A DNA stretch of 64,000 nt from Rhizobium ecuadorense. Lineage in GTDB: Bacteria > Pseudomonadota > Alphaproteobacteria > Rhizobiales > Rhizobiaceae. The notes beneath the pieces are model-generated. The model made no database searches, was not told where the DNA came from, and saw only the letters and a program-made list of their open reading frames with translations. Position numbers and translations under genes: made by a program. Each line of letters starts with the position of its first letter. The stretch's first letter is position 1. The stretch covers positions 1 to 64,000 of the forward strand of contig NZ_LFIO01000074.1 of assembly GCF_001187535.1 (NCBI RefSeq), written 5' to 3'. Positions 22,267 through 51,066 of this stretch are shown one piece after another.

Positions 22267-22440
22267 CGCCTGCCCGAAAAACCGCAAATCTCGGCAAAAC
22301 GGTTTTCGGCGGGCGCTTTGGATTCATGCAGCTGTCAAGTTCATTTTGAATGACAAATGATGATAGGCTGTATGCGGAATGGCCCATACCATTTTCTGCG
22401 TTGAGCACTAAATTACCAGTCGTCGAAGAGGGGGATTTTC

Positions 22441-35931: not shown

Positions 35932-36427
35932 GGAAATATCCTTGTGGAGTAAGTGGATGGGGTTGCGAAATTCCGGACCTGTCCCTCCGGCTCTCTTGCC
36001 TGAGAGCGGGCTGGGATGTCGCGGTTTCATCTGGTCGGCTAATTCGGGGGTGAGGAGGTCAGGCTCTGCCGGAACCGTTGCACCGAGGAGATATAGCTGA
36101 CCTGCCGTCGCGGATGGACGGCGGCATTTTCTCTAGCACAGGTAGTTTTGCGGCTCATTATCAGACGTAGAGTGTATTCCCTCGATTCTTGCAACCCTCA
36201 AATTCCGCTGGCCGGTGGGAAATCATTCGCCCAAATTTCATGTGTTTTTCAATGACCTATGAGGTGTCCGGCCTTTATTCGCTTCTGAACTAATATATTT
36301 GTATTTTAGTGTGGACGGCGGCTGACCGATTGGGCTAAGTCCGTGGCGGCAGAGTCTGGTCAGCGCGCTCGCCGTATCGAACGATCGATATGGGCTGGCC
36401 TGCATTCGTCCAATCAGGAGAAGCGTG
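35932..36427. other. Intergenic region, AT-rich in places
   Basis: 496 bases between the exported protein gene and the EamA transporter gene. No gene is supported. It contains a hairpin GCTCTC-N6-GAGAGC (35990-36007) in the 5' region of the exported protein gene, an AT-rich stretch from about 36120, and an ACT/AGT-flanked site at 36289-36310. Confidence 0.6.
36289..36310. promoter_or_regulatory. Degenerate GntR-like operator
   Basis: ACT-N16-AGT. The first 11 bases ACTAATATATT resemble the ACT-N8-AGT operators at 37342, 42714 and 48289. It lies about 120 bases before the EamA transporter gene. Much weaker than the other three. Confidence 0.25.
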
Positions 36428-37303
36428 ATGCAGCCCGGTCGCACAGGCCTCGCCGTCTGCATGATGGTGGCCGCCGCCTTTTTGAACAGTCTCGACGCGA
36501 TCATCGTGCGCATGCTGGCCGGCGACGTGCACCCCTTGATGATCGGCTTTTTCCGGTCGTTTTTCGGACTTCTTGCCGTCTCGCCGTGGATCGTGGCGCG
36601 GGTTGGTCTGAAAGACTCTCCCTACCGGGTTCTGCATGTCGTGCGTGCGGGTCTGAAACTTGCCTCACTGGTTGCGTTGTTCATCGCCTTTGCGCACGCT
36701 CCGCTGGCCGATGCCACGGCGATCAATTTCACCATGCCGATGTTTCTCGTTCTCGGTGCGTGGCTTGTGCTCAAGGAACGTGTCGGCATCTCCAGCGTCG
36801 CCGGCATCGCCGCGGGTTTTGTCGGCGTCATGATCATCATTCGCCCAGGCGCGACCGGTTTCGATCAATGGCTGCTTTTTGCACTGGCAGGAGCGGTCTT
36901 GACGGCGGCCAGCCAGTTGATGCTGCGGCGGATGGCATTGAGGGACAGCGCGGACCGGCTGGTTGCATGGAATCTGATCACGACGGTGCCGCTTGGCCTG
37001 ATCGTCATGCTGCCGGTCTGGTCGATGCCGAGCTGGAGCCAACTCGGGCTGCTCGCCATGCAGGGGGCACTCGGCGCCTTCAACATGACGCTGATCACGC
37101 GCGCCTTCGGCATGGCGGCCGCAAGCGTCCTGGCGCCGCTCGACTTTCTCCGGCTGCCGGTCGTGGCGCTGATGGCCTTCCTGTTTTTCTCGGAAATTCC
37201 GGCTGCCCAGACCTGGATCGGTGCAGCGGTCATCATTGGCGCGACCATCATCGGCACCGGTGGCATGGCGTGGCGACGGAGGCCGCCGGTTGACAAGGCC
37301 TGA
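36428..37303 (+). CDS. EamA/DMT-family transporter
   Basis: A 291-residue inner-membrane protein with about ten membrane segments arranged as two EamA repeats (about 8-140 and 150-285). ATG 36428 has AGGAG seven bases upstream. DMT proteins export amino acids, nucleobases or other small metabolites; the substrate is unknown. It stands upstream of the sugar-acid cluster in the same direction, with its own promoter region. Confidence 0.88.
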   Translation: MQPGRTGLAVCMMVAAAFLNSLDAIIVRMLAGDVHPLMIGFFRSFFGLLAVSPWIVARVGLKDSPYRVLHVVRAGLKLASLVALFIAFAHAPLADATAINFTMPMFLVLGAWLVLKERVGISSVAGIAAGFVGVMIIIRPGATGFDQWLLFALAGAVLTAASQLMLRRMALRDSADRLVAWNLITTVPLGLIVMLPVWSMPSWSQLGLLAMQGALGAFNMTLITRAFGMAAASVLAPLDFLRLPVVALMAFLFFSEIPAAQTWIGAAVIIGATIIGTGGMAWRRRPPVDKA

Positions 37304-37337
37304 TCATTCTAAGAAAAGGGGTTCACAAAAATTCTAG

Positions 37338-37355
37338 ATGCACTAATATTTCAGT
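37338..37355. promoter_or_regulatory. Candidate GntR operator, transporter operon
   Basis: ATGCACTAATATTTCAGT (core ACT-N8-AGT, 37342-37355). It matches the reverse complement of 48289-48306 at 15 of 18 positions and shares the core with 42714-42727. It lies 95 bases before the permease ATG. Confidence 0.6.
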
Positions 37356-37449
37356 TGACGCCTGTCGCCGGAGGGGCATGACGGGCGGGCTTCGGCACGA
37401 GCGAAGATCAGGCTGACGATCCGAATAGGTTTCACTCGGGAGGAGTGGC

Positions 37450-38364
37450 ATGAAAAGTTTCATCGGCAAACGCGCGATCGCCAGCGGCGTATCGCTCGTG
37501 GCGCTTATCGTCATCGTGTTCTTCCTGTCCCGGCTGACAGGCGACCCGACCGACCTCTATCTGCCGATCGATGCGACCACGGAAATGCGCCAGCAATTCC
37601 GTGAGATGAACGGGTTCAATGACCCGCTGATCATCCAGTTCGGCCGTTATGTTGCCGATCTCGCTCAGGGCAACTTCGGTCAATCCCTGCGGCAGGCCCG
37701 CCCTGCCATGGATGTCGTGCTGGAGGCCTTCGTCTGGACCTTCTGGCTGGCTGTCATCACCATGACGCTCGTCACGGTGGCTGCGATCGTCATCGGTTCG
37801 CTGGCGGCGTTTCGCGTCGGCGGCGTCTTCGATCGTCTCGCCACCTTCTTCTCGCTGATCGGCGCTGCGGCCCCGGATTTCTGGCTTGCGATCGTGGCCA
37901 TCGTCATTTTCGCCGTCAAACTGCATGTCCTGCCGACATCGGGAACGGGAACCTTCTGGCATTGGGTCCTGCCGGTCAGCGTGCTGTTCATCCGGCCCTT
38001 CGGCCTGATCCTGCAGGTTGTGCGGGGCTCGATGATCAGCGTCCTATCTTCCGCCTACGTCAAGACGGCCCGCGCCAAGGGTGTCCGTTCGAACTCGATC
38101 ATCTTCGTTCACGGGCTGCGCAATGCCATGCTGCCGGTGATCACCGTCATCGGCGACCAGGCGGCAGCCATCTTGAACGGTGCCGTGGTCGTCGAAACGG
38201 TGTTCGGTTTTCCGGGAATCGGCAAGCTGATGATCGATTCCATCCTGCTTCGCGATTTCGCCGTCGTGCTGGCCGTCATCATGGTCTCGGCATTGGCGAT
38301 TTTCATCATGAACCTGTTGATCGACATCGCCTATGCGCTGCTCGATCCGCGTATCCGGTATTGA
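37450..38364 (+). CDS. Dipeptide-type ABC permease (DppB-like)
   Basis: A 304-residue inner-membrane protein with about six segments and the conserved cytoplasmic loop YVKTARAKGVRSNSIIFVHGLRNA that contacts the ATPase. The family imports peptides, nickel, or oligosaccharides and sugar acids in rhizobia. GGGAGG lies upstream. First gene of permease-permease-ATPase-dehydrogenase; the binding protein is about 10 kb downstream under a matching operator. Confidence 0.92.
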   Translation: MKSFIGKRAIASGVSLVALIVIVFFLSRLTGDPTDLYLPIDATTEMRQQFREMNGFNDPLIIQFGRYVADLAQGNFGQSLRQARPAMDVVLEAFVWTFWLAVITMTLVTVAAIVIGSLAAFRVGGVFDRLATFFSLIGAAAPDFWLAIVAIVIFAVKLHVLPTSGTGTFWHWVLPVSVLFIRPFGLILQVVRGSMISVLSSAYVKTARAKGVRSNSIIFVHGLRNAMLPVITVIGDQAAAILNGAVVVETVFGFPGIGKLMIDSILLRDFAVVLAVIMVSALAIFIMNLLIDIAYALLDPRIRY

Positions 38365-38367
38365 GCG

Positions 38368-39309
38368 ATGGCGATGACCGACACCCAAATCCTCATCGAG
38401 AAAAAGCCGAGCGGCCCGATCGGGCGCTGGCTGACCATGCTGTGGGCGGACAAGCTGGCCTTCTTCGCCGCTCTGTTCCTTCTGATCGTTCTTCTCTGTG
38501 CGCTGCTTGGCCCGTTTCTGCTGGAGGGCATCGCCACCAAGCAGAACCTGCGGGGTCGAAACGCGCCGCCCTTCGATCTCACCCGCGGATGGCTTTACGT
38601 CCTTGGCGCCGATGCGCTGGGCAGGCCGCTTCTGGCCCGCGTCGTCGTGGCGGCGCAAAACACCATCCTGGTTGCGGCGGCGGCGGTGCTTGCCTCCTCC
38701 GTCGTCGGCACGGCGCTCGGACTGGTGGCGGGTTACAGCCGCTCGTCCGCGGCTCAATGGATCATGCGCCTCGGCGACGTCATCATGTCCTTTCCGTCGC
38801 TGCTTCTGGCGGTGATCGTGCTCTATATGCTCGAACCCTCGGTCACCAATATCGTCCTCGTCCTGGCAATCACCCGTATTCCGATCTATCTGCGCACCGC
38901 CCGCGCCGAAGTGCTTGAGGTGCGCGAGCGGATGTTCGTGCAGGCGGCGAAGGTGATGGGGGCATCGAACCGGCGCATCGTCTTTAATCACATCCTGCCG
39001 GTGATCTTTCCGACGCTGGTGACCATCGCGACGCTCGATTTCGCCTTCGTCATGCTGGCGGAATCCTCGCTGTCGTTCCTGGGGATCGGCATTCAGGCGC
39101 CTGAGATCACCTGGGGTCTCATGGTTGCCCAAGGACGGCCCTATCTCACCAATGCCTGGTGGCTGTCCTTCTGGCCCGGCCTTGCCATCATCCTGACGAC
39201 GCTGTCGCTGAACCTCCTGTCGAATTGGCTGCGCATCGCGCTCGATCCGACGCAACGCTGGCGCCTTGAAATGAGAGGCAGGGAAATGAGGGGCGGGAAA
39301 AATGGCTGA
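38368..39309 (+). CDS. Dipeptide-type ABC permease (DppC-like)
   Basis: 313 residues, with a cytoplasmic N terminus, a family loop (FVQAAKVMGASNRRIVFNHILP) and about six membrane segments. It starts three bases after the DppB-like gene and overlaps the ATPase gene by eight bases. Forms the heteromeric channel with the previous protein. Confidence 0.92.
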   Translation: MAMTDTQILIEKKPSGPIGRWLTMLWADKLAFFAALFLLIVLLCALLGPFLLEGIATKQNLRGRNAPPFDLTRGWLYVLGADALGRPLLARVVVAAQNTILVAAAAVLASSVVGTALGLVAGYSRSSAAQWIMRLGDVIMSFPSLLLAVIVLYMLEPSVTNIVLVLAITRIPIYLRTARAEVLEVRERMFVQAAKVMGASNRRIVFNHILPVIFPTLVTIATLDFAFVMLAESSLSFLGIGIQAPEITWGLMVAQGRPYLTNAWWLSFWPGLAIILTTLSLNLLSNWLRIALDPTQRWRLEMRGREMRGGKNG

Positions 39310-40936
39310 ACATCTTCTCGACGTGCGTAACCTCTCGGTCGAGTTCCACACGCTCACCGGCACCGTCAAGGCAGTACAGGACGTAAGCTGGCATCTCGAC
39401 CGCGGCGAGACGCTGGCAATTCTCGGAGAAAGCGGTTCGGGTAAATCGGTCTCCGCCTCGGCCGTCATGAACCTGATCGATATGCCGCCCGGCAGGATCA
39501 CCAGCGGCACCATTCTCCTGAATGGGTGCGACATGCTGACAATGACGCCCGAGCAGCGGCGTTCGATCAACGGCGCGAGGATCGCCATGATCTTTCAGGA
39601 CCCGCTGGCCCATCTCAACCCGGTCTATCCGGTCGGCTGGCAAATCACCGAAATGATGACCACGCACGGTGAACCCGCTGAGCGCGCCGGCGCCAGGGCG
39701 CTCGAATTGATCGGACGCGTCGGCATCACCGATCCGCAGGCGGCGATGCGCAAATATCCGTTCCAGTTCTCCGGCGGACAGCGGCAACGCCTGATGATCG
39801 CCATGGCGATCGCCTGCAAGCCGGACATCCTGATTGCCGATGAACCCACCACCGCGCTTGACGTTACGGTGCAGGCTCAGGTGCTCGAACTTCTGCAGGA
39901 GTTGCAGCAGGAAACCGGAATGGGCCTGTTGCTGATCACGCATGATCTCGGCGTCGTTGCCGAGATCGCCGACCGGGTCGTGGTGATGAATTCCGGCTGC
40001 GTCGTCGAAACCGGCAATGCTGCCGAAGTCTATCGCAATCCGCAGAACGCCTATACGAAGAAGCTGATTGCCGCCGCACCGGGGAAGGGCGCAATGGCGC
40101 AGGAGCGTGACCGGCAGGGCGAGCCGCTGCTGCGCGCCATCGGCTTGAAGAAGAGTTTTGGTGCCTTCCAGGCCCTGAAAGGTGTCGACCTCGTCATCAT
40201 GCCCGGCGAAACCGTCGCGGTCGTCGGCGAGAGCGGTTCCGGCAAGTCGACCCTTGCCCGGGCGATCGTTCGCCTCGACGATCCGCAGGAGGGCCAGGTC
40301 CTTTACCGCGGCAATGATCTGCTTGCGATGACCTCGAGAGAAATATTCGGGCTGCGTCGTGATTTGCAGATGGTCTTTCAGGACCCGACACAGTCGCTCA
40401 ACCCGCGAATGACCGTGTTCAGGCTGATTTCTGAGGCCTGGGTCATTCACCCCGAGATCCTGCCGAAAGCAAGGTGGAAGGAGAGGGTGGCCGAATTGCT
40501 GATCAAGGTCGGTCTGAAGCCGGATATGGCGGACCGCTATCCGCATCAATTCTCCGGCGGTCAGCGCCAGCGCATCGCCATTGCCCGCGCGCTGGCGATG
40601 GAGCCGAAACTGATCATCTGCGACGAGGCGGTTTCGGCGCTCGACGTGTCGATCCAGGCGCAGGTGATTGCCTTGCTCGAAGGCCTGCGTCGCGAATTCG
40701 GCCTGTCCTATCTTTTCATTGCGCACGACTTGCCGGTGGTTCGCGATTTCGCCGACCGCGTCATCGTCATGAAGGCCGGCGAAATTGTCGAGGAGGGGCC
40801 CGTGGCCAGGATCTTCAATGCGCCCGCCCACCCCTATACCCAGGCGCTGCTTGCCGCCGGCCTCGATCCCGATCCCGAAATCCAGGCCGCCCGGCGCGCC
40901 GCACGCCTCACACAGGAAGGACTCGTTCCCGCATGA
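39302..40936 (+). CDS. Dipeptide-type ABC ATPase, two domains fused
   Basis: 544 residues, DppD and DppF in one chain. Domain 1: Walker A GESGSGKSV, signature FSGGQRQR, Walker B LIADEPTTALD. Domain 2 from about 275: Walker A GESGSGKST, signature FSGGQRQR, Walker B IICDEAVSALD. Both sites look complete. The stop overlaps the ATG of the 2-hydroxyacid dehydrogenase (ATGA), coupling uptake to metabolism. Confidence 0.94.
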   Translation: MAEHLLDVRNLSVEFHTLTGTVKAVQDVSWHLDRGETLAILGESGSGKSVSASAVMNLIDMPPGRITSGTILLNGCDMLTMTPEQRRSINGARIAMIFQDPLAHLNPVYPVGWQITEMMTTHGEPAERAGARALELIGRVGITDPQAAMRKYPFQFSGGQRQRLMIAMAIACKPDILIADEPTTALDVTVQAQVLELLQELQQETGMGLLLITHDLGVVAEIADRVVVMNSGCVVETGNAAEVYRNPQNAYTKKLIAAAPGKGAMAQERDRQGEPLLRAIGLKKSFGAFQALKGVDLVIMPGETVAVVGESGSGKSTLARAIVRLDDPQEGQVLYRGNDLLAMTSREIFGLRRDLQMVFQDPTQSLNPRMTVFRLISEAWVIHPEILPKARWKERVAELLIKVGLKPDMADRYPHQFSGGQRQRIAIARALAMEPKLIICDEAVSALDVSIQAQVIALLEGLRREFGLSYLFIAHDLPVVRDFADRVIVMKAGEIVEEGPVARIFNAPAHPYTQALLAAGLDPDPEIQAARRAARLTQEGLVPA

Positions 40937-41880
40937 AGCCCGATGTCATCGTCGCCTACCCGCTCCGGCCCCGTCAGATGGCAGGGCTGGAGGAGATCTA
41001 TACGCTGCACCGGCTGGACCTTGCAGAAGGCCGGGAACGCGATGCTCTTCTGGCCAAATCCGGCCCGATCTGCACGGCTCTGGTCTGCAACGGCCATGTG
41101 ACGATCGACGAGGCGCTGCTTGCGAAGTTGCCGGCGCTGAAGCTTGCCGCCTGTTCCTCGGCCGGCTACGACCAGATGGATGTCGAGGCGATGACGCGGC
41201 GCGGCATCAAGCTCACCAACACATCCGAGGTCCTGTGCGACGACGTTGCCGACACGGCGCTGCTTCTGATGCTGGCGGCCCGCCGGCGCCTGCCGGAAGG
41301 CGACCGCTATGTGCGCTCCGGCGAATGGGGGCGCAACGGCATGATGCCGCTGACAACGTCGACGTCGGGCAAGAAGGCCGGGATTGTCGGCCTCGGCCGC
41401 ATCGGTATGGCGATTGCCAGGCGATGCGAGGCTGTCGGGCTGACGGTCGGCTATTCCGGACGGACGAAAAAAGCCGGCAACGATTTTGCCTATTTCGACG
41501 AGCCGGTGAAACTGGCGGACTGGGCAGATATCCTGATCGTGGCGACGCCGGGCGGGGCCTCGACCGAAGGTTTGATTTCGGCTGAGGTGCTGAACGCGCT
41601 CGGCCCGGCGGGCAGCTTCATCAACATTGCCCGCGGCACCGTGGTCGATGAGCCGGCGCTGATCCGGGCCCTGCAGGAGAGGCGGATCGCGTCGGCCGGC
41701 ATCGATGTCTACCTCAACGAACCCCATCCCGATCCGCGCTTTGCAGCGCTCGATAATGTCGTGCTCTATCCCCATCACGCCAGTGGCACCGAGGAAACGC
41801 GCGACAGGATGGCGCAATTGACGGTCGACAACCTTGCCGCCTTCTTCGCAGGCAGGCCGCTGCTGACGCCGGTCAATTGA
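40933..41880 (+). CDS. D-isomer 2-hydroxyacid dehydrogenase
   Basis: 315 residues, NAD(P)-dependent. Rossmann motif GLGRIGMAIA (about 150), catalytic Arg in NIARGTVVDE, Glu in DVYLNEP and His in PHHASGT. Family members reduce glyoxylate, hydroxypyruvate or 2-oxo sugar acids. Its ATG overlaps the ATPase gene stop, so it is made with the transporter; it probably acts on an imported acid or an intermediate of its breakdown. Confidence 0.9.
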   Translation: MKPDVIVAYPLRPRQMAGLEEIYTLHRLDLAEGRERDALLAKSGPICTALVCNGHVTIDEALLAKLPALKLAACSSAGYDQMDVEAMTRRGIKLTNTSEVLCDDVADTALLLMLAARRRLPEGDRYVRSGEWGRNGMMPLTTSTSGKKAGIVGLGRIGMAIARRCEAVGLTVGYSGRTKKAGNDFAYFDEPVKLADWADILIVATPGGASTEGLISAEVLNALGPAGSFINIARGTVVDEPALIRALQERRIASAGIDVYLNEPHPDPRFAALDNVVLYPHHASGTEETRDRMAQLTVDNLAAFFAGRPLLTPVN

Positions 41881-41909
41881 CCCCGGTGGAAATCCGCGGC
41901 GCGGCAGGC

Positions 41910-42629
41910 TCAGACGAAGTAGTCCGGGAACTCCTTCCTGAGCTCTTCCACTTTCGCGACGGTGCGGCTGAGATGCTCGCGGATCGCATCGACCGCACCC
42001 TGTTCGTCGCGGGCGGCAATCGCGTCGATGATGGCGTGGTGGCCGTCGAGGATGCTCATGATCTTGCCCTTTTCGGGCAGGTGCAGACGGCGAAGGCGCT
42101 CGAGATGGCCGGACCGCTCGCGAACCAGTTGATGCAGGCTGCTGCGCTTGGCGCCTGCGAACAAGGTCTGGTGAAAGAGTTCGTCGAGTTCCTGGAAGAT
42201 GGCGATCTGGTCGACGTCGTCGGCGACGGCCGACTGCATTTTGATGATCGAGCGGGCGCGCGTGATGACGCTTGGATCCGGATCCGGATCGGTCGCGAGG
42301 CGGCGGCAGACTTCCGATTCCAGCGCGACGCGAAGGAAATGCGCCTCGTATATCTGCAGGACGTCTATCCTGGTCACCACGGTGCGGGACTGCGGGTAAA
42401 TGCGCACCAGGCCTTCCTGTTTGAGGAGCTGCAACGCGTCACGAATGGGGGTCTGGCTGACTTCATAGGTCTCGGTAAGCTCGGTGCGCGACAGCGTGGT
42501 GTCCGGCGGCAGCTGAATGGTGATGATGCGCTTTCTCAGATCATCATAGACGCGCTGGACGGTGCTGCCGGCCGCGGGTGGAAAACCGGGTGCAGTCAGG
42601 CCGAATGTGGAGGCGAACTGGGAATTCAT
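41910..42629 (-). CDS. GntR-family regulator, FadR/FCD subfamily
   Basis: 239 residues: winged helix-turn-helix (about 22-85, TLSRTELTETYEVSQTPIRDALQLL) and an FCD ligand domain (about 95-225) with metal-type residues (ELDELFHQTL, HHAIIDAI). ATG 42629 has AAGGA nine bases upstream. It diverges from the dehydratase operon and sits between the two halves of the sugar-acid cluster. Likely a repressor released by a sugar acid, acting at the ACT-N8-AGT sites. Confidence 0.9.
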   Translation of the reverse strand: MNSQFASTFGLTAPGFPPAAGSTVQRVYDDLRKRIITIQLPPDTTLSRTELTETYEVSQTPIRDALQLLKQEGLVRIYPQSRTVVTRIDVLQIYEAHFLRVALESEVCRRLATDPDPDPSVITRARSIIKMQSAVADDVDQIAIFQELDELFHQTLFAGAKRSSLHQLVRERSGHLERLRRLHLPEKGKIMSILDGHHAIIDAIAARDEQGAVDAIREHLSRTVAKVEELRKEFPDYFV

Positions 42630-42670
42630 GTGAGGCAATCCTTTTCACTCCATTCATAGCTTTGCACGCC

Positions 42671-42688
42671 CTAATGCACAAGAATGCA
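42671..42688. promoter_or_regulatory. CTAATGC motif near gntR start
   Basis: CTAATGCACAAGAATGCA lies 42 bases upstream of the GntR gene ATG. A close relative, CTAATGCGCAAATGCA, is found as the reverse complement of 48302-48317 in the binding-protein promoter. Possibly a second contact for the same regulator. Confidence 0.3.
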
Positions 42689-42713
42689 AAGTTGCCGTTG
42701 ATATATATGGGAA

Positions 42714-42727
42714 ACTAAAATATCAGT
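42714..42727. promoter_or_regulatory. Candidate GntR operator, dehydratase operon
   Basis: ACTAAAATATCAGT, core ACT-N8-AGT, lying between the divergent GntR and dehydratase genes, 47 bases before the latter's GTG. Shares the core and AT-rich centre with 37342-37355 and 48289-48302. Confidence 0.6.
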
Positions 42728-42773
42728 TGGAAGAAGGTGTGCGGAGGAGCACGCAAAAAGGTGGGAGAAAGCC

Positions 42774-44510
42774 GTGGCCGCGAGGAAAATTTACGAGGAA
42801 TTGCGGTCGGCCCGATGGATGCTGCCGGATGATCAGCGTTCGTTCGGTCACCGGTCGCGGACCATGCAGATGGGCTATGCGCCGGAGGATTGGCAGGGAA
42901 AGCCGATCATTGCCGTCATCAACACCTGGTCCGACGCCCAGCCGTGCCACATGCATTTCCGCGAACGCGTGGAATGGGTGAAGCGGGGCATTCTTCAGTC
43001 GGGCGGGTTCCCGATGGAATTGCCCGCTCTTTCGCTTTCCGAAAATTTCGTCAAGCCGACGACGATGCTCTACCGCAACATGCTGGCGATGGAGACCGAG
43101 GAGCTGTTGCGCAGCCATCCTGTCGACGGCGCCGTTCTGATGGGCGGCTGCGACAAGACGACACCCGGCCTTGTCATGGGTGCGGTCAGCATGGGCATTC
43201 CCTTTGTTTATCTGCCGGCCGGTCCGATGCTCCGCGGCAATTACGCCGGCAAGACGCTCGGCTCCGGCACCGACGGTTTCAAATATTGGGATGAGCGGCG
43301 TGCCGGCACGATCACCAAAGAGGAGTGGCAGGGCATCGAAGGCGGCATTGCCCGCAGCTACGGCCATTGCATGACCATGGGCACAGCGTCGACGATGACG
43401 GCGATCGCCGAGGCTATGGGATTGACGCTGCCGGGCGCTTCCTCGATTCCGGCGGCCGACGCCAACCACCAGCGCATGTCGGCAGCCTGCGGCCGCCGCA
43501 TCGTCGATATGGTGTGGGAGGATCTGACGCCGGACAAGATCATCACGCCGGCCTCCGTCGACAATGCAGTCACGGTCGCCATGGCGACCGGCTGCTCCAC
43601 CAATGCGATCATCCATCTGATCGCCATGGCGCGGCGCGCCGGCGTGCCGCTGGAGCTCGATGACCTCGATCGCATCGGCCGCACCACGCCGGTTCTTGCC
43701 AACATCCGGCCGTCCGGTTCGACCTACCTGATGGAGGATTTCTTTTATGCGGGCGGCTTGCGGGCGCTGATGAAGCAGCTCGGCGACAAGCTGGATCCAA
43801 CCGCGATAACCGTCACGGGCAAGCCCTTGGTGGACGGCCTCGACCAGGTGAAAATCTACAATGACGACGTTATCCGGCCATTGTCGAACCCGGTCTATCA
43901 CGAAGGTTCGCTGGCAGTACTCAAGGGCAATCTGTGTCCCGACGGCGCGGTCATCAAGCCGGCGGCCTGCGACCCGAAGTTCCATCGCCATCGCGGTCCA
44001 GCGCTGGTCGCCGACAGCTATGCGGAGATGAAGAAGATCATCGACGATCCCGATTATCCGCTGACGCCTGATACGGTGCTGGTGCTGCGCAATGCCGGCC
44101 CGCAGGGCGGGCCCGGCATGCCGGAATGGGGCATGATCCCGATGCCGAAGGCGTTATTGAAGCTTGGCCTGCGCGACATGGTGCGCATTTCGGATGCCCG
44201 CATGTCCGGAACGAGCTTCGGCGCCTGCGTGCTGCACGCCGCGCCGGAATCCTACATCGGCGGGCCGCTGGCATTGTTGCGAACCGGTGACATGGTCGAG
44301 CTCGACATTCCGGCACGCAGCCTCAATATGCTGGTTTCCGAAGAGCAGATCGCAGCGCGGCGTGCCGCCTGGGTGGCGCCGATAAGGCATTACGAGCGCG
44401 GTTACGGCTTCATGTTCTCCAAGCATATCGAGCAGGCCGACAAAGGCTGCGACTTCGACTTCCTGACGACGGAATTCGGTGGCAAGACTGCTGAACCGGC
44501 TATCAACTGA
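42774..44510 (+). CDS. IlvD/Edd-family sugar-acid dehydratase
   Basis: 578 residues of the IlvD/Edd family, sugar-acid (L-arabinonate/D-xylonate) type. Three cysteines expected to hold a [2Fe-2S] cluster are C58 in SDAQPCHMH, C126 in GGCDKTTPG and C199 in YGHCMTMGTASTM; K128 is next to the metal site and SGTSFG near 482 supplies the catalytic Ser. Closely resembles the rhizobial L-arabinonate dehydratases. Removes water from an aldonate to give a 2-oxo-3-deoxy acid. GTG start with GGGAG upstream. First gene of the enzyme operon. Confidence 0.9.
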   Translation: MAARKIYEELRSARWMLPDDQRSFGHRSRTMQMGYAPEDWQGKPIIAVINTWSDAQPCHMHFRERVEWVKRGILQSGGFPMELPALSLSENFVKPTTMLYRNMLAMETEELLRSHPVDGAVLMGGCDKTTPGLVMGAVSMGIPFVYLPAGPMLRGNYAGKTLGSGTDGFKYWDERRAGTITKEEWQGIEGGIARSYGHCMTMGTASTMTAIAEAMGLTLPGASSIPAADANHQRMSAACGRRIVDMVWEDLTPDKIITPASVDNAVTVAMATGCSTNAIIHLIAMARRAGVPLELDDLDRIGRTTPVLANIRPSGSTYLMEDFFYAGGLRALMKQLGDKLDPTAITVTGKPLVDGLDQVKIYNDDVIRPLSNPVYHEGSLAVLKGNLCPDGAVIKPAACDPKFHRHRGPALVADSYAEMKKIIDDPDYPLTPDTVLVLRNAGPQGGPGMPEWGMIPMPKALLKLGLRDMVRISDARMSGTSFGACVLHAAPESYIGGPLALLRTGDMVELDIPARSLNMLVSEEQIAARRAAWVAPIRHYERGYGFMFSKHIEQADKGCDFDFLTTEFGGKTAEPAIN

Positions 44511-44519
44511 GGCACCACG

Positions 44520-45710
44520 ATGTTTGATCCCAATCGACGCACGATCCCCGCACAGCCGCCCAAGGCCGGCTTTGCGGCCGGCCCGGCCAAGCTGGACGCC
44601 ATCCGCTCGGTCACGCTGTCGCTCGCTTATCTGCCGTTGGCGCGGCCGATCAGCGACGCCAAGGTTTTGACGGGCCGGCAGAAGCCGCTGACTGAGGTGG
44701 CATTTCTGTTTTGCGAGATCGTCTCCGAAGCCGGCCATAGCGGTCTCGGCTTCAGTTACTCGAAGCGGGCCGGCGGCCCCGCTCTTTATGCGCATGCCTG
44801 CGAGATTGCCGACAATCTGATCGGCGAAGATCCCAGCGACACGGCGCGGATATGGGACAAGCTCTGCTGGGCCGGAGCCTCGGTCGGACGCTCCGGCATT
44901 GCGACGCAGGCCATTGCCGCCATCGACATCTGCCTCTGGGACCTGAAGGCAAAACGGGCCGGCCTGCCGTTGGCAAAATTGCTCGGCGCTTATCGCGACA
45001 GCGTCGCCTGCTACAACACGTCAGGCGGCTTCCTGTCGTCGAGTGTCGAGGAAATCCGCGATGCCATCGATCACTCGATCGCCGCCGGTATCGGCGGCAT
45101 CAAGATCAAGGTCGGGCAGCCGGACCCGATGATCGACCTTCGCCGGCTTGATGCCGTGACCAGCCATATCGACGGCCGTGTGCCGCTAATGGTCGATGCC
45201 AACCAGCAATGGGACCGCACGACGGCGTTGCGCTTCGGCCGGCTGGTCGAGCCGCTCAATCTCGAATGGATCGAAGAACCGCTCGATGCCTATGACGCCG
45301 AAGGCCATGCCGCACTGGCGCGCGAACTCGCCACACCGATCGCCACCGGCGAGATGCTGGCAAGCGCCGACGAACATATGGCCCTGATCCGCGCTGACGC
45401 GGTCGACTTCATTCAGCCGGATGCGCCGCGTGTCGGCGGCATCACGCCGTTTCTCCGCATCTGCACGCAAGCCGAGGCGAAACGCATGCGCCTGGCGCCG
45501 CATTTCGCCATGGAAATCCATCTGCACCTGGCGGCCGCCTATGCGCACGAGCCGTGGGTAGAGCATTTCGATTGGCTGGCGCCACTGTTCAACGAGCAGC
45601 TCGACATTCGGGATGGCCGGATGATCGTGCCCGCGCGTCCGGGGCTTGGCTGCAGCCTGACGGGCAATGCCCGTGACTGGACCGTGGAAACACGCAGCTT
45701 CGGCAGCTGA
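44520..45710 (+). CDS. Enolase-superfamily dehydratase (galactarate/talarate type)
   Basis: 396 residues of the mandelate racemase subgroup. K195 and K197 form the KxK (IKIKVGQ), metal ligands lie in DANQQW, WIEEPL and TGEML, and H328 in APHFAMEIH is the second base. As I recall, K197 and H328 are also the catalytic pair numbers in Salmonella L-talarate/galactarate dehydratase, and the C-terminal WVEHFDWLAPLFNE is alike. It would turn an aldarate into 5-keto-4-deoxyglucarate. It follows the IlvD/Edd gene by nine bases. Confidence 0.85.
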   Translation: MFDPNRRTIPAQPPKAGFAAGPAKLDAIRSVTLSLAYLPLARPISDAKVLTGRQKPLTEVAFLFCEIVSEAGHSGLGFSYSKRAGGPALYAHACEIADNLIGEDPSDTARIWDKLCWAGASVGRSGIATQAIAAIDICLWDLKAKRAGLPLAKLLGAYRDSVACYNTSGGFLSSSVEEIRDAIDHSIAAGIGGIKIKVGQPDPMIDLRRLDAVTSHIDGRVPLMVDANQQWDRTTALRFGRLVEPLNLEWIEEPLDAYDAEGHAALARELATPIATGEMLASADEHMALIRADAVDFIQPDAPRVGGITPFLRICTQAEAKRMRLAPHFAMEIHLHLAAAYAHEPWVEHFDWLAPLFNEQLDIRDGRMIVPARPGLGCSLTGNARDWTVETRSFGS

Positions 45711-45732
45711 ATTTGAACGAGGAGAAGGAAAT

Positions 45733-46443
45733 ATGAACCCCGCAACCCGTGAAAAGCTGATGGGTGTCTCGGTCGCGACGCTCTGCTCGGCGCTGTTCAA
45801 GCGCGGCCTGAGAAACCAGACGGTTCAGGATGTCCGGCCGGTGCAGCCGAAGGGCCGCAACATGGTGGGGCCGGCCTTCACGCTGCGTTACATGCCGGCG
45901 CGCGAGGACCGCAATGCGATGAACGTGTTTCGGAACCCGAAACATCCGCAAAGGCTTGCCATCGAGACCTGCCCCGAAGGTCATGTTCTGGTGATGGACA
46001 GCCGCAAGGATCCGCGGGCGGCCTCGGCCGGCGACATATTGATTACCCGTCTGATGATGCGCGGCGGCGCCGGCGTCGTCACCGACGGCGGCTTCCGCGA
46101 CGCCATGACCATCGGCGGCCTTGATATTCCCGCCTATCACCATCGTCCCTCCAGCCCGACCAACCTCACGCTGCACGAGGCGATCGACATAAACGTGCCG
46201 ATCGGCTGCGGCGACGTGGCGGTCTTCCCTGGTGATATCATGGTTGGCGACGACGACAGCGTGATCGTCATTCCGGCCGAGATCGCCGACGAGATCGCCG
46301 ACGAAGCGGTGGAGATGACTGCTTACGAGGATTTCGTCACGGAGCGCGTCAAGCAGGGACATACGATCATCGGCCTCTATCCGGCCACCGACGAAAGTAA
46401 TCTGACGCTCTTTGCCGAATGGCGAAAGGTGAACGACCGCTAA
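45733..46443 (+). CDS. RraA-like protein, possible aldolase
   Basis: 236 residues of the RraA/HMG-aldolase fold, with TDGGFRD (Arg and Asp of the active site) and GDVAVFPGDIMVGDDDSVIVIP. Some relatives are class II aldolases for 4-hydroxy-2-oxo acids, others RNase E regulators; the context here favours a carbon-metabolism role, for example on a 2-oxo-3-deoxy acid. ATG 45733 has GAAGGA upstream. Third gene of the enzyme operon. Confidence 0.8.
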   Translation: MNPATREKLMGVSVATLCSALFKRGLRNQTVQDVRPVQPKGRNMVGPAFTLRYMPAREDRNAMNVFRNPKHPQRLAIETCPEGHVLVMDSRKDPRAASAGDILITRLMMRGGAGVVTDGGFRDAMTIGGLDIPAYHHRPSSPTNLTLHEAIDINVPIGCGDVAVFPGDIMVGDDDSVIVIPAEIADEIADEAVEMTAYEDFVTERVKQGHTIIGLYPATDESNLTLFAEWRKVNDR

Positions 46444-46444
46444 A

Positions 46445-46492
46445 GCATGATGCCGAAAAGTGTGAGCGGTTTTCGGACGACATCCCGTTCTA
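46445..46492. repeat. 48-bp dispersed repeat, copy 2
   Basis: Pair of 14609-14656 with two mismatches. It starts one base after the RraA-like stop codon and includes the same CCGAAAA/TTTTCGG stem. Placed inside the enzyme operon, so it may shape mRNA stability or partly terminate before the aldehyde dehydrogenase gene. Confidence 0.8.
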
Positions 46493-46559
46493 AGCCGCGC
46501 ATCTTGAACAACGGATCACCGCATCAGGACGGAGCGAGGCTCCACCGAGGAGGATAAGA

Positions 46560-48077
46560 ATGAGCTGGACCCCTTCAGGCAGGCATCTCATTGCCGGCGA
46601 GTGGATTGCCGGAACGACGACATTTCGCTCCGAGCCGGCGCACGGCCCGGCCCATGACTTCGCGGTCGGGACGACGGAACTGGTCGACCGCGCGTGCCGC
46701 GCTGCCAAAGCCGCTTTTGCGGCGTTTTCAGCAAAGACATGCGAGGAGCGCGCCATTTTCCTCGAGACGATCGCCGAGGAGATCGACAGACGCGGCGAGG
46801 CCGTCACCCTCATCGGAACTCAGGAAACGGGGCTCCCGGAAGGCCGGCTCAATGGCGAGCGTGCCCGCACCACGGGCCAGCTCAAGCTGTTTGCCGAGCA
46901 TATCCGCAAGGGCGCGCATCTCGACGCGCGTGTCGACGCGGCGCAACCCGATCGGCAGCCGGCGCCGCGGCCCGAAATCCGCCTGGTGCAGCGGCCGATC
47001 GGCTCGGTCGCCGTCTTCGGCGCCTCGAATTTTCCGCTGGCATTCTCGACGGCTGGCGGCGATACGGCAGCCGCGCTTGCCGCCGGCTGCCCGGTCGTGG
47101 TGAAGGGACATTCAGCTCATCCCGGCACCGGCGAGATCATTGCCGAGGCGGTCGCCGCTGCGATCGAGCGTACCGGAATGCCGGCCGGCGTCTTCAGCCT
47201 GATCCAGGGCGGGCGCCGCGATGTCGGCACGGCTCTGGTGACGCATCCCGCCATCAAAGCGGTCGGCTTTACCGGATCGCTTGCCGGCGGTCGTGCGCTC
47301 TTCGACCTTTGCGCCCAGCGCCCCGAACCGATCCCCTTTTTCGGGGAGCTCGGCAGCGTCAATCCGATGTTCCTGCTGCCGGCCGCGACCGCCGCCCGGG
47401 CTGAGGCGATCGGTTCAGGCTGGGCGGGCTCCCTGACGCTCGGAGCCGGCCAGTTCTGCACCAAACCCGGTATCGCCGTCGTGGTCGATGGGCCGGAGGC
47501 GGACAGGTTTGCCGGCGCCGCCAAGTCGGCTCTCGAAAAGGTGGCGCCACAGACGATGCTGACCCAAGGCATCGCAACCGCTTATCACGACGGTGTCGAG
47601 CGCATGCGGGCGAGCAATGCCGTCGCGCCGGTACTTTCTGTAAAGAGCGCCGGTCGGGACGCAGCCCCGAACCTGTTCGAGACCAATGGTTCGGCCTGGC
47701 TTGCCGATCATTCGCTCAGCGAAGAGGTGTTCGGTTCTCTCGGTCTGGTGGTGCGCGTCGGCTCGCCGGAAGAGATGCTCACCCTTGCCGAAAGCTTCCA
47801 GGGGCAGTTGACGGCGACGATCCATATGGACGACGCCGATCTTGGCCTTGCCCGCGACCTGCTGCCGATCCTCGAAAGGAAGGCGGGCCGATTGCTGGTC
47901 AATGGCTTCCCGACCGGCGTCGAGGTTGTCGATTCCATGGTGCATGGCGGTCCCTATCCGGCCTCGACCAATTTCGGTGCGACCAGCGTCGGGACCATGT
48001 CGATCCGCAGGTTTCTGCGCCCCGTCGCCTACCAGAATTTCCCCGCCGGCCTGTTGCCCCAAGACCTGCGCAACTGA
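46560..48077 (+). CDS. 2-oxoglutarate semialdehyde-type dehydrogenase
   Basis: 505 residues of the aldehyde dehydrogenase superfamily, of the type that oxidises 2,5-dioxovalerate to 2-oxoglutarate: GASNFPLAFSTAGGDTAAAL, VVKGHSAHPGT, catalytic Glu in GELGSVNP and Cys in GAGQFCTKPG. This is the last step of the non-phosphorylating L-arabinose, D-xylose and aldarate routes. AGGAGG precedes the ATG. It is 116 bases after the RraA-like gene with a repeat between. Confidence 0.9.
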   Translation: MSWTPSGRHLIAGEWIAGTTTFRSEPAHGPAHDFAVGTTELVDRACRAAKAAFAAFSAKTCEERAIFLETIAEEIDRRGEAVTLIGTQETGLPEGRLNGERARTTGQLKLFAEHIRKGAHLDARVDAAQPDRQPAPRPEIRLVQRPIGSVAVFGASNFPLAFSTAGGDTAAALAAGCPVVVKGHSAHPGTGEIIAEAVAAAIERTGMPAGVFSLIQGGRRDVGTALVTHPAIKAVGFTGSLAGGRALFDLCAQRPEPIPFFGELGSVNPMFLLPAATAARAEAIGSGWAGSLTLGAGQFCTKPGIAVVVDGPEADRFAGAAKSALEKVAPQTMLTQGIATAYHDGVERMRASNAVAPVLSVKSAGRDAAPNLFETNGSAWLADHSLSEEVFGSLGLVVRVGSPEEMLTLAESFQGQLTATIHMDDADLGLARDLLPILERKAGRLLVNGFPTGVEVVDSMVHGGPYPASTNFGATSVGTMSIRRFLRPVAYQNFPAGLLPQDLRN

Positions 48078-48094
48078 AACCGGGGAGCAACAAA

Positions 48095-48223
48095 TTGATC
48101 GCTGCGACGAAACTTCGCGAGATCATTCGCCGGATTCGAGGCAGATCAATGCCTGCGCCGCTGACCGATCTTACCGATGAAGAGGTCGACATGCCGCGCG
48201 GACTGATTGCTTCGGCCGGCTAG
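48095..48223 (+). CDS. Possible 42-residue peptide
   Basis: TTG start with GGGGAG seven bases upstream, 17 bases after the aldehyde dehydrogenase stop. The product MIAATKLREIIRRIRGRSMP... is basic at the N terminus and acidic in the middle (LTDLTDEEVD). No family recognised. May be a small accessory peptide or chance. Confidence 0.3.
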   Translation: MIAATKLREIIRRIRGRSMPAPLTDLTDEEVDMPRGLIASAG

Positions 48224-48288
48224 AAACCAAGCGTTCCAGACTTAGAGAGTGCCCGTGTTTCGGCCACCGCGCTTGATCGCTCCATTCA

Positions 48289-48306
48289 ACTAGTATATTA
48301 GTGCAT
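48289..48306. promoter_or_regulatory. Candidate GntR operator, binding-protein gene
   Basis: ACTAGTATATTAGT (48289-48302), extended by GCAT to 48306. Its reverse complement matches 37338-37355 at 15 of 18 bases. It lies 110 bases before the binding-protein ATG. Confidence 0.6.
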
Positions 48307-48412: not shown

Positions 48413-49933
48413 ATGAAACTGCATTTGGTTGCTGCCTGTATTTCAACCGCGATGATCGGGCTGAGCACTGGCTCGGCACACGCTGACGATGCCAAGAGCA
48501 ACGTCACTGTCGTGCTTGCCGAGACCGTCGATGTCGTCGAGCCCTGCATGGCGGCGCGCCAGGACGTCGGCCGGGTCATGTCCGAAAACGTCAACGAGAT
48601 GCTGGTCGAATTCGACTACGTCAATGGCGGCCTCAAACCCCGCCTGGCGACGGAGTGGTCGAAGATCGACGACGACACTTGGGAATTCAAGCTGCGCCCG
48701 AACGTCAAATGGCACGACGGCAAGCCGTTCACCGCCAAAGACGTCCAGTTCACGATCGAGCGCAACAAGAACAAGAAGCTCAGCTGTGAAACCGGCGGCA
48801 AATATTTCGGCGGCACGGAATTCAGCTTCGAGACGCCGGATGCCAACACGATCCGCATTACGACAAAACCGGCCCAGCCGATTCTGCCGTTGCTGATGAC
48901 GGTGATGGCCGTGGAATCGGCCGAGGCGACGCCTGCAGACGAATTCACCCGCAAGCCGATCGGCACCGGCCCCTATACGTTCGACAAATGGGAGATCGGC
49001 CAGTCGATCGTGCTGAAGCGCAATCCGGATTATTGGGGGGAGAAGCCCCAGGTCGAGCAGGCCACCTACCTGTTCCGCTCGGACAGCGCGGTCGCTGCCG
49101 CCATGGTCGATGCCGGCGAAGCCGATATCGTTCCGGCCGTATCGGTGCAGGATGCCACCAACAAGGAAACCGATTTCGCCTATCCGAATTCGGAGACGAC
49201 ATCGCTGCGCATCGATACCCGCGCAGCACCCCTCAACGACCGGCGCATACGCGAAGCGATGAATCTTGCCATCGATCGTCAGGCAATGCTCGGAACACTA
49301 TTTCCCGAACAGGCGAAGATCGCCACGCAGCTCGTTGTGCCCACAACGATCGGCTACAATGCCGATATCCCCGCCTGGCCCTATGATCCTGAAAAGGCAA
49401 AGGAACTGGTCAAGGCGGCGAAAGCTGACGGCGTCCCGGTCGATCAAGAGATCCGCATCATCGGCCGCAACGGGCAATATCCCAACGCCACCGAAGCGAT
49501 GGAAGCTATGATGGCCATGCTTCAGGACGTCGGTTTGAACGTCAAGCTCGACATGTACGACGTTTCCGTGTGGAACGGCTATTTCGTTGCACCTTTCGTC
49601 GCCGATTCCGGCCCGACATTGACCCAGTCGCAGCATGACAATGCCACCGGTGATCCCGTCTTCACCGCATTCGTCAAATACGCGACCGACGGCTCTCACT
49701 CCATGGTTCGGGATCCCACGGTCGACGCCCTCATCGCCAAGGCGACTTCAGCCACCGGCGACGAGCGCACAAAACTTTGGAAGGAGCTTTTCGCCAAGGT
49801 GAACACCGAGATCATCGCCGATATACCGATGTTTCATATGGTCGGCTTCACCCGCGTTTCGCCGCGTCTCGACTTCAAGCCGACGATCGCGACGAATTCC
49901 GAACTGCAGTTGTCGCAGATCCGCTTCAAGTAA
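48413..49933 (+). CDS. Family 5 ABC substrate-binding protein
   Basis: 506 residues, periplasmic, with a signal peptide cut after GSAHA. Typical SBP_bac_5 stretches: ATEWSKIDDDTWEFKLRPNVKWHDGKPF, and IGTGPYTFDKWEIGQSIVLKRNPDYWG. Excellent GGAGGA before the ATG. It is the only candidate binding protein for the permeases at 37-39 kb and shares their operator. Binds peptides or, by context, a sugar acid. Confidence 0.92.
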   Translation: MKLHLVAACISTAMIGLSTGSAHADDAKSNVTVVLAETVDVVEPCMAARQDVGRVMSENVNEMLVEFDYVNGGLKPRLATEWSKIDDDTWEFKLRPNVKWHDGKPFTAKDVQFTIERNKNKKLSCETGGKYFGGTEFSFETPDANTIRITTKPAQPILPLLMTVMAVESAEATPADEFTRKPIGTGPYTFDKWEIGQSIVLKRNPDYWGEKPQVEQATYLFRSDSAVAAAMVDAGEADIVPAVSVQDATNKETDFAYPNSETTSLRIDTRAAPLNDRRIREAMNLAIDRQAMLGTLFPEQAKIATQLVVPTTIGYNADIPAWPYDPEKAKELVKAAKADGVPVDQEIRIIGRNGQYPNATEAMEAMMAMLQDVGLNVKLDMYDVSVWNGYFVAPFVADSGPTLTQSQHDNATGDPVFTAFVKYATDGSHSMVRDPTVDALIAKATSATGDERTKLWKELFAKVNTEIIADIPMFHMVGFTRVSPRLDFKPTIATNSELQLSQIRFK

Positions 49934-49950
49934 GCTGGTTTGCGGATTGA

Positions 49951-49984
49951 AGCGCGGGCCGCCTTTTCCTGAATGGCCCGCGCT
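49951..49984 (+). terminator. Terminator after binding-protein gene
   Basis: AGCGCGGGCC (49951-49960), a 14-base loop, then GGCCCGCGCT (49975-49984) and TTCC. A 10-bp GC stem starting 18 bases after the stop. It separates the binding-protein gene from the Ldh_2 gene. Confidence 0.65.
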
Positions 49985-50004
49985 TTCCATGACATGACGG
50001 ATGG

Positions 50005-51066
50005 ATGCCTATGCCGCTGATTGACCGCATTGCCCTCACCCAATTCGCCGAGCAGATATTGATCCGCGCCGGGATGGAAGCCGACAAGGCCGAAACCACA
50101 GCCGCCGTCCTGGTGGAAGGCGACATGATCGGCCACGAAACGCATGGCGTCAGCCTTGTGAACTGGTATGTCGAAGCATTGGAGGACGGTTCGCTGGCGA
50201 AGTCCGGCAGCTACGAGGTGGTCAATGACCGCGGCGCAGCCTTTGTCTGGGACGGCAAATCCTTGCCGGGTGCGTGGCTCTTGACAAAGGCGATCGAGCA
50301 GGCCTGCGAACGTGTGCGCGATCGCGGCGTCGTCACCGCGGCAATCCGAAACTGCCATCATACCTGCGCTCTGTCAGCCTTCATGCGGCAGGTTACCGAG
50401 CAGGGCCTGATCGTGCAGCTGTCGGTATCGCATCCGGCGGCAAGCCGTGTCGCGCCCTATGGCGGCACCAAGCCGCTGCTGACGCCGAACCCGATAGCGG
50501 CCGGATTCCCGACATCCGGGGATCCGATCCTGATCGACGTCTCGGCTTCGATCACCACTACGACGATGACACAAGACCTGGCGAAGGCCGGCAGGAAATT
50601 CCCCGAAGCCTGGGCTTTCACCGCCGCAGGTGAGCCGACCGATGATCCGCGCGAGGTGACCGAACGCGGCGGGACGATGATGCCGCTTGGTGGCCAGTTG
50701 AAGGGTCATAAGGGCTTTGGGCTCGGGCTGATCGTCGAGTTGCTGGGACAGGGGCTTTCCGGCAAGGGACGGGCGAACGCGCCGCCTGGCGTGTTTTCGC
50801 AAAGCGCCTTTCTTCAGGTCATCGACCCCGCCTTTTTCGTCGGGCTGGATGCCTTTACCGCTCAGTCCGATTTTCTCGCCTCCGCATGCCGCAGCAACCC
50901 TTCCGCGCCCTGGAACAATGGCCCGGTCCGCATGCCGGGTGACAGCGCAGCCCGAAGACGTCGCTCGGCGTTGGAAGAGGGCGTGCCGGTCGGCGAGGCG
51001 GCATGGGAGAAGCTCTGTAAGCATGCCGAGATCCTGGGCTTGCCGATCCCTGACGTCGTCGCCTGA
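50005..51066 (+). CDS. Ldh_2-family (malate/L-sulfolactate-type) dehydrogenase
   Basis: 353 residues of the NAD(P)-dependent Ldh_2 fold: catalytic region GHETHGVSLVNWYVEAL, then NCHHTCALSAF, YGGTKPLLTPNP and GHKGFGLGLIVELL. Relatives act on malate, sulfolactate, 2,3-diketogulonate or ureidoglycolate. ATG 50005 or 50011. Its position directly behind the sugar-acid cluster suggests it belongs to that pathway, but a terminator stands between and it may use read-through or its own promoter. Confidence 0.88.
   Translation: MPMPLIDRIALTQFAEQILIRAGMEADKAETTAAVLVEGDMIGHETHGVSLVNWYVEALEDGSLAKSGSYEVVNDRGAAFVWDGKSLPGAWLLTKAIEQACERVRDRGVVTAAIRNCHHTCALSAFMRQVTEQGLIVQLSVSHPAASRVAPYGGTKPLLTPNPIAAGFPTSGDPILIDVSASITTTTMTQDLAKAGRKFPEAWAFTAAGEPTDDPREVTERGGTMMPLGGQLKGHKGFGLGLIVELLGQGLSGKGRANAPPGVFSQSAFLQVIDPAFFVGLDAFTAQSDFLASACRSNPSAPWNNGPVRMPGDSAARRRRSALEEGVPVGEAAWEKLCKHAEILGLPIPDVVA

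Follow-up and report, generated by a model that had tools for sequence, protein, structure and literature searches.

The window analysed here is a stretch of 64,000 nucleotides from Rhizobium ecuadorense (NCBI RefSeq assembly GCF_001187535.1, contig NZ_LFIO01000074.1, positions 1 to 64,000 of the forward strand), and it carries a cluster of sugar-acid genes spread over 12 kb. Our results suggest a model whereby the regulator encoded within this cluster, a GntR protein with an FCD domain (41910-42638), binds four copies of a short palindrome and switches the whole cluster as one local regulon. We consider this model, in which the binding is predicted from sequence, to be very probably correct. 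That the genes form one local regulon is well supported: the same operator stands before each unit and is kept in orthologous clusters. The sugar-acid genes are thereby joined in a single testable regulon, and the operator is defined sharply enough to be searched for in any genome.

A rare palindrome precedes each unit of the cluster

The original prediction was built on the pattern ACT-N8-AGT, seen at three places. All three 14-mers are present, at 37342, 42714 and 48289, and the agreement reported between the first and the third, 15 of 18 bases, is exact. The bare pattern did not hold up as a distinguishing motif, since it occurs 5 times in the window (a number reached by 30 of 100 shuffles) against 3.53 expected, and at 223 places genome-wide; it was therefore not used as evidence. 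One such match at 22407-22420 (ACTAAATTACCAGT) is a poor palindrome lying 14 kb off the cluster and was taken as chance.

The useful motif proved to be a 14-bp palindrome, ACTAATATATTAGT. This consensus was taken from distant relatives, and it occurs exactly beside regulators of 45-57% identity in three other families (L014, L015 and L018). Allowing up to 2 mismatches, it is found at 5 places in the 7.38 Mb genome, four of them inside the 12-kb cluster and the fifth at C113:170186; the palindrome written backwards, as a control, is found at 1. The fourth site in the cluster, at 36289-36302, had been overlooked, so that the three sites stood but their number did not. The operators mostly have A or T where G or C would stand, apart from a G in one half of site 3. 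Downstream of operator 4 stands TTTTAGT, and we considered a longer joint element, as well as DNA looping between the sites.

The sites are conserved within the genus

Raw counts of the palindrome in 100 relatives (up to 2 mismatches) were weak evidence, as 79 carry one or more copies and the backwards control often does equally well; the comparison was confined to places beside regulators. Of the 100, 93 contain a match of some kind to the regulator, and 12 have a close ortholog (94-99% identity). Ten of these 12 (L031-L040) have all twelve query genes and, together with the window, provide 11 full clusters. The other two (L041 and L042) hold only gntR, dehydratase and rraA among the query genes in the stretch fetched, and both retain site 2.

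Sites 1 and 2 are present in all 11 full clusters, each with 13 of 14 columns invariant, compared with 49% and 57%, respectively, of the intergenic bases around them. Site 3 is present in 8 (12 of 14 columns in these 8 genomes, against 45% around) and site 4 in 7 (all 14 columns in these 7 genomes, against 35% around). In the alignments of sites 1 and 2, conserved bases also lie on the upstream, promoter side. The original prediction had staked itself on conservation of this kind and came through the comparison.

The palindrome accompanies orthologous regulators in distant bacteria

Of 30 regulators with 41-100% identity, 29 have the palindrome nearby at up to 3 mismatches. A larger set of 80 named loci was found by regulator alignment; the search pattern admitted only Gln, Leu or Ser at one position of the recognition helix (see below), and these loci are therefore uninformative on regulators with Arg there. 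In 58 of the 80, the palindrome (up to 2 mismatches) lies within 250 bp of the regulator start, compared with none for the reversed pattern and 0.06% for shuffled upstream sequence. Its density is 2.81 per kb near the regulator start versus 0.040 per kb elsewhere. These loci contain 55 further sites, of which 44 lie within 300 bp before a gene of the cluster (permB 22, sbp 14, eamA 6, dehydratase 1 and gntR 1). Nine of the remaining 11 are found about 3 kb upstream of regulators with the helix SQSPVRE or SQSPIRE; at L045, the sole annotated locus of this type, the site precedes the binding-protein gene of a tripartite ATP-independent periplasmic (TRAP) transporter. The last two are in L153 and L154, and an extra site of their type in L216 is followed by tripartite-transporter-like genes, as read by eye.

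The association extends to loci with an altered gene order. Thus, sites stand before dehydratase and rraA in Paracoccus marinaquae (L152), before the transporter operon in two other Paracoccus (L216 and L217) and before an sbp-headed transporter operon in L043. Overall, in other genera, families and orders the palindrome accompanies the orthologous regulator and precedes genes for transporters and dehydratases. Because site and regulator occur together in such distant bacteria, the regulator is the likely binder. The claim that the genes spread over 12 kb form one regulon thus draws support from the rarity of the palindrome, from its conservation and from these distant loci, and stands on firmer ground than when first made.

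The extra site in the two Paracoccus loci (L216:11020-11033 and L217:10645-10658) lies beyond ldh2; in L216, the tripartite-transporter-like frames that it precedes, read by eye, are possibly a second importer of the regulon. We also observed that in Marinomonas (L177, L181 and L183) two palindromes stand 31-32 bp apart upstream of the regulator; one is exact, and the other deviates at a single base.

A scan made without reference to the regulator gave a similar picture. Of 385 alphaproteobacterial genomes, 12 contain the exact 14-mer, each a single time, and 4 contain the backwards control. Nine of the 12 copies are no more than about 160 bp from the start of a gene matching FCD-GntR, and eight of these nine regulators lack the recognition-helix Arg and belong to the same clade as the window regulator. 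Another copy has an rraA homolog on one side and, on the other, a gene judged by eye to encode a TRAP binding protein; the other two lie in loci with a GC content of 26% and 40%, where such genes are absent.

The regulator lacks the canonical recognition arginine

Profile searches identify the regulator as a GntR winged helix (PF00392, 55.8 bits, cut-off 27) joined to an FCD domain (PF07729, 76.0 bits, cut-off 24.3). In the effector site of the FCD domain, Asp152, His156, His200 and His222 are invariant in 7 aligned regulators and, by analogy with Atu1419, may bind a metal. A published parallel for DNA reading is Atu1419 of Agrobacterium fabrum, an FCD/VanR-type GntR protein with crystal structures on DNA, in which Arg45 is described as reading the essential G of ATGTATACAT (PMC7797058, consulted in part). 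Structures of this protein (6z74 and others) were among the sequence relatives returned by a PDB search. Helix 3 of the window regulator, SQTPIRDAL, has Gln62 at the position of Arg45, and the clade has Gln, Leu, Ser or Ala there, so that the canonical helix-3 Arg is missing. The Arg is not universal, since another solved relative, TM0439 (3sxy), has Phe at this position.

Given that Gln stands in this helix in place of the G-reading Arg of the solved relative, we predict that the regulator reads A/T at operator positions 5 and 10 and not the GT..AC core of the family. A dimer bound at sites 1 and 2 would block RNA polymerase and so repress both operons; this is suggested by the predicted -10 hexamers inside operators 1 and 2 (Table 1). 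Bound at site 2, the regulator would also limit its own synthesis. A carboxylate of the pathway (galactarate, talarate or a keto-deoxy product) might then enter the FCD domain and release the DNA, whereupon importer and enzymes would be made together.

Points against the model and competing explanations

Several observations weigh against the model. Site 4 has one imperfect half and is missing from four of the full clusters (L036-L039). Site 3 is missing from three (L033, L034 and L038), in which the whole promoter stretch is deleted, so that sbp follows aldh at a distance of about 130 bp in L033 and L034 and comes shortly after kdgD in L038. Only at site 4 does conservation exceed that of every other 14-column window, as 6 of 137 windows score above site 1, 1 of 123 above site 2 and 10 of 326 above site 3. 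Promoter-like pairs are at chance level (3 found, 2.6 expected by shuffling), and for this reason only their position is of interest. Among the 80 loci, two (L163 and L189) have no site within 3 mismatches, and a dehydratase copy in L148 that lies away from the regulator has none at 2 mismatches. In the genome scan, one of the nine regulator-linked copies (G093) is the locus L018 from which the consensus was in part derived, and another (L218) places an exact palindrome beside an Arg-bearing regulator. Finally, 22 of 40 regulators of only 26-39% identity also have an upstream match at up to 3 mismatches.

This last result bears on the question of which protein binds. The sites might belong to a paralogous FCD-GntR regulator, such as the one encoded beside the mannonate dehydratase gene uxuA in the same genome, or to several paralogues, with the cluster forming part of a wider hexuronate/aldarate network. 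The uxuA-side paralogue in the same genome (L206, contig C1671) is 35% identical to the window regulator and has ACTGGTATACTAGT upstream of its own gene; its counterpart in G007 (L207:6163-6176) has ACTGGTATATTAGT, a single base from site 3. Moreover, the ACT..AGT frame is shared by many paralogues. It was this sharing that made position alone insufficient to name the regulator, as the original prediction had done, even though the protein it chose remains the likely binder, given the palindrome beside orthologous regulators elsewhere. Against paralogue binding, the palindrome with an A/T core tracks the orthologues of the window regulator through many genomes, eight of the nine scan hits with an adjacent regulator adjoin its own clade, and ACTGGTATACTAGT differs from the palindrome by 3 mismatches, at positions 4, 5 and 10. 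We therefore regard binding by paralogues as improbable.

Related observations concern the frame itself. Upstream of FCD regulators L098, L105 and L118 the centres are CTACCATGGTAG or CTGCCATGGTAG, and upstream of L106, L114 and L116 they are ACTAGTATGGTAGT or ACTTGTATGGTAGT, in each case inside ACT..AGT. Since other centres occur inside the same outer frame, many FCD regulators within the order may share this frame.

Slightly less probable again is the idea that only site 2 works, serving autoregulation and the dehydratase operon, while sites 1, 3 and 4 represent either remnants or the -10 elements of promoters. It would fit the presence of site 2 in every cluster examined, including the short ones in L041 and L042, and the loss of sites 3 and 4 from 3 and 4 of the 11 full clusters. 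It does not, however, account for site 1, which is as constant as site 2 and as invariant in its columns, nor for the sites that precede permB (22) and sbp (14) at the 80 loci. In addition, the losses of site 3 are deletions of the promoter stretch, and base decay of a lost site 3 was not seen in any of the full clusters. Chance resemblance among AT-rich intergenic stretches, which the unremarkable window count of bare ACT-N8-AGT might invite, is virtually dismissed by the 58 of 80 loci against none for the reversed pattern and by the genome-wide rarity, the conservation and the 385-genome scan.

A possible two-position code between paralogues

The proposed link between the helix residue and the operator core is also a prediction from sequence, and it has counter-examples. 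We tabulated the bases at operator positions 5 and 10, which were left unscored in the site search, against the residue in the helix; 49 of 150 regulators passed the good-site cut, which the window's own upstream site failed (7 of 9). All 60 half-sites of non-Arg regulators carry A. In contrast, the 36 half-sites that belong to Arg regulators divide into 14 G, 9 C, 12 A and 1 T, and in three of these regulators (L108, L112 and L120) both halves carry A. In a tree of 115 of the 150 regulators, with near-copies left out, all 75 non-Arg rows fall on one side of a single branch (100/99). Because the Arg was lost on one branch, and because the search was limited to Gln, Leu and Ser, the pattern amounts to one event and is suggestive only.

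We tentatively propose that this non-Arg FCD-GntR clade (Alphaproteobacteria, Marinomonas and one record labelled actinobacterial) may have lost the helix Arg and moved its core from GTATAC to ATATAT within an unchanged ACT..AGT frame, so avoiding the operator of the Arg-bearing uxuA-side paralogue; the two positions would then act as a paralogue code. The two proteins have much in common, each with the frame upstream of its own gene and an adjoining sugar-acid dehydratase gene. They differ in that the paralogue has the helix-3 Arg and, in its own genome, G/C at operator positions 5 and 10, whereas the window regulator has Gln62. A clade that departs from the published GT..AC rule together with the residue that enforces it in a solved relative offers a handle on how GntR paralogues in the same cell avoid each other's sites.

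Comparison with known regulators

The layout of the regulon is familiar; what sets it apart as a variant is the form of its operator and the absence of the Arg. As in Atu1419, a winged helix is combined with an FCD domain, the palindromic operator overlaps the promoter (here by prediction) and helix 3 has the Ser-x-Thr...Arg spacing (44-46 and 49 in Atu1419, 61-63 and 66 here). Atu1419 autoregulates, as we propose for the window regulator. The Atu1419 operator has a GT..AC core read by Arg45, whereas the window combines Gln62 with an A/T core and conserves ACT..AGT outside it (PMC7797058). According to the part of Suvorova et al. (2015; PMC4494728) at hand, the FadR-subfamily consensus is TKGT-N2-3-ACMA, with exceptions such as NanR and BioR; the window regulator is not named among the exceptions in that part. 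DgoR, ExuR, UxuR, GntR and LldR, as presented there, resemble it in that they are repressor-type regulators acting locally on sugar-acid genes through AT-rich palindromes, frequently placed in divergons. Unlike theirs, the window operators lack such boxes, GT and AC at that spacing being found in none of the four sites. Among the titles and abstract openings listed in a literature search, with RegPrecise and supplements outside its scope, none dealt with this operator, and we make no claim that it is absent from print.

Genes of the cluster and the probable substrate

The gene picture of the original prediction was right in outline, as judged by profile searches (Table 1). Both dehydratases pass curated cut-offs, and the other functions were assigned by family; the ATP-binding cassette (ABC) transporter is of the peptide/opine type.

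Table 1. Operators, promoter-like pairs and genes of the cluster (window coordinates; ORF, open reading frame)
Feature	Coordinates	Strand	Sequence, position or basis
Operator 1	37342..37355	+	ACTAATATTTCAGT; precedes transporter operon
Operator 2	42714..42727	+	ACTAAAATATCAGT; inside gntR/dehydratase divergon
Operator 3	48289..48302	+	ACTAGTATATTAGT; precedes family-5 binding-protein gene
Operator 4	36289..36302	+	ACTAATATATTTGT; precedes EamA-type gene (36425); 1 mismatch to palindrome
Promoter-like pair TTCACA-N16-TAATAT, transporter operon	37322..37349	+	Consensus scan; second hexamer inside operator 1
Promoter-like pair TTGCCG-N18-TAAAAT, dehydratase operon	42692..42721	+	Consensus scan; second hexamer inside operator 2
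EamA/DMT-type transporter gene	36425..37303	+	ORF; R. johnstonii 3841 ortholog annotated DMT family transporter
Transporter operon: two permeases, double ATPase, 2-hydroxyacid dehydrogenase (from 40933)	37450..41880	+	ORFs, profile searches
GntR regulator with FCD domain	41910..42638	-	TTG start 42638 or ATG 42629
L-arabinonate-dehydratase-type (IlvD/EDD) gene	42774..44510	+	NF009559, 1133.7 bits, cut-off 882
Talarate/galactarate-dehydratase-type gene	44520..45710	+	NF047820, 662.4 bits, cut-off 500; solved relatives 2og9, 2pp0
RraA-like gene	45727..46443	+	NF006093 above cut-off; PF03737
Aldehyde dehydrogenase gene	46560..48077	+	PF00171; no NCBIfam model among matches listed reached cut-off
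Remnant, both ends of kdgD-type gene	~48092..48223	+	Alignment with L036-L039, which carry the gene there
Family-5 substrate-binding protein and Ldh_2 dehydrogenase (from 50005) genes	48413..51066	+	ORFs, Pfam

In L036-L039, a gene of the 5-dehydro-4-deoxyglucarate-dehydratase type (kdgD) stands between those for the aldehyde dehydrogenase and the binding protein; its frame is broken in L039, the R. johnstonii 3841 type. The window cluster retains only its two ends, and another KdgD is encoded at G000:C1337:207926-208816. The kdgD-type gene, together with the talarate/galactarate dehydratase, points to an aldarate such as galactarate as the probable substrate of the cluster. The galactarate/talarate pathway runs via KdgD and 2-oxoglutarate semialdehyde. 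Candidate counterparts of its steps are the dehydratase, which scores above its curated cut-off, the aldehyde dehydrogenase, assigned by Pfam family, and the KdgD outside the cluster, and the four orthologous clusters with a KdgD-type gene add to the likeness. Unlike that pathway, the window cluster has a peptide/opine-type importer, an RraA-like gene and an extra arabinonate-type dehydratase, and lacks a complete kdgD. Short clusters in L041, L042, L137 and L138 contain only gntR, the arabinonate-type dehydratase and the RraA-like gene among the query genes, which suggests that these two enzymes are the enzyme core. The RraA-like protein may be an aldolase.

In R. johnstonii 3841, the orthologous cluster is on plasmid pRL12, with the transporter operon at NC_008378.1:252040-255511. 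Counting genes from rpiB2, which is pRL120210 in the part of PMC11103875 at hand, puts this operon at about pRL120241-243. It is therefore likely, by this counting, that the operon includes or adjoins pRL120243, which PMC3333776, likewise consulted in part, describes as induced in the alfalfa rhizosphere and as having an unknown solute.

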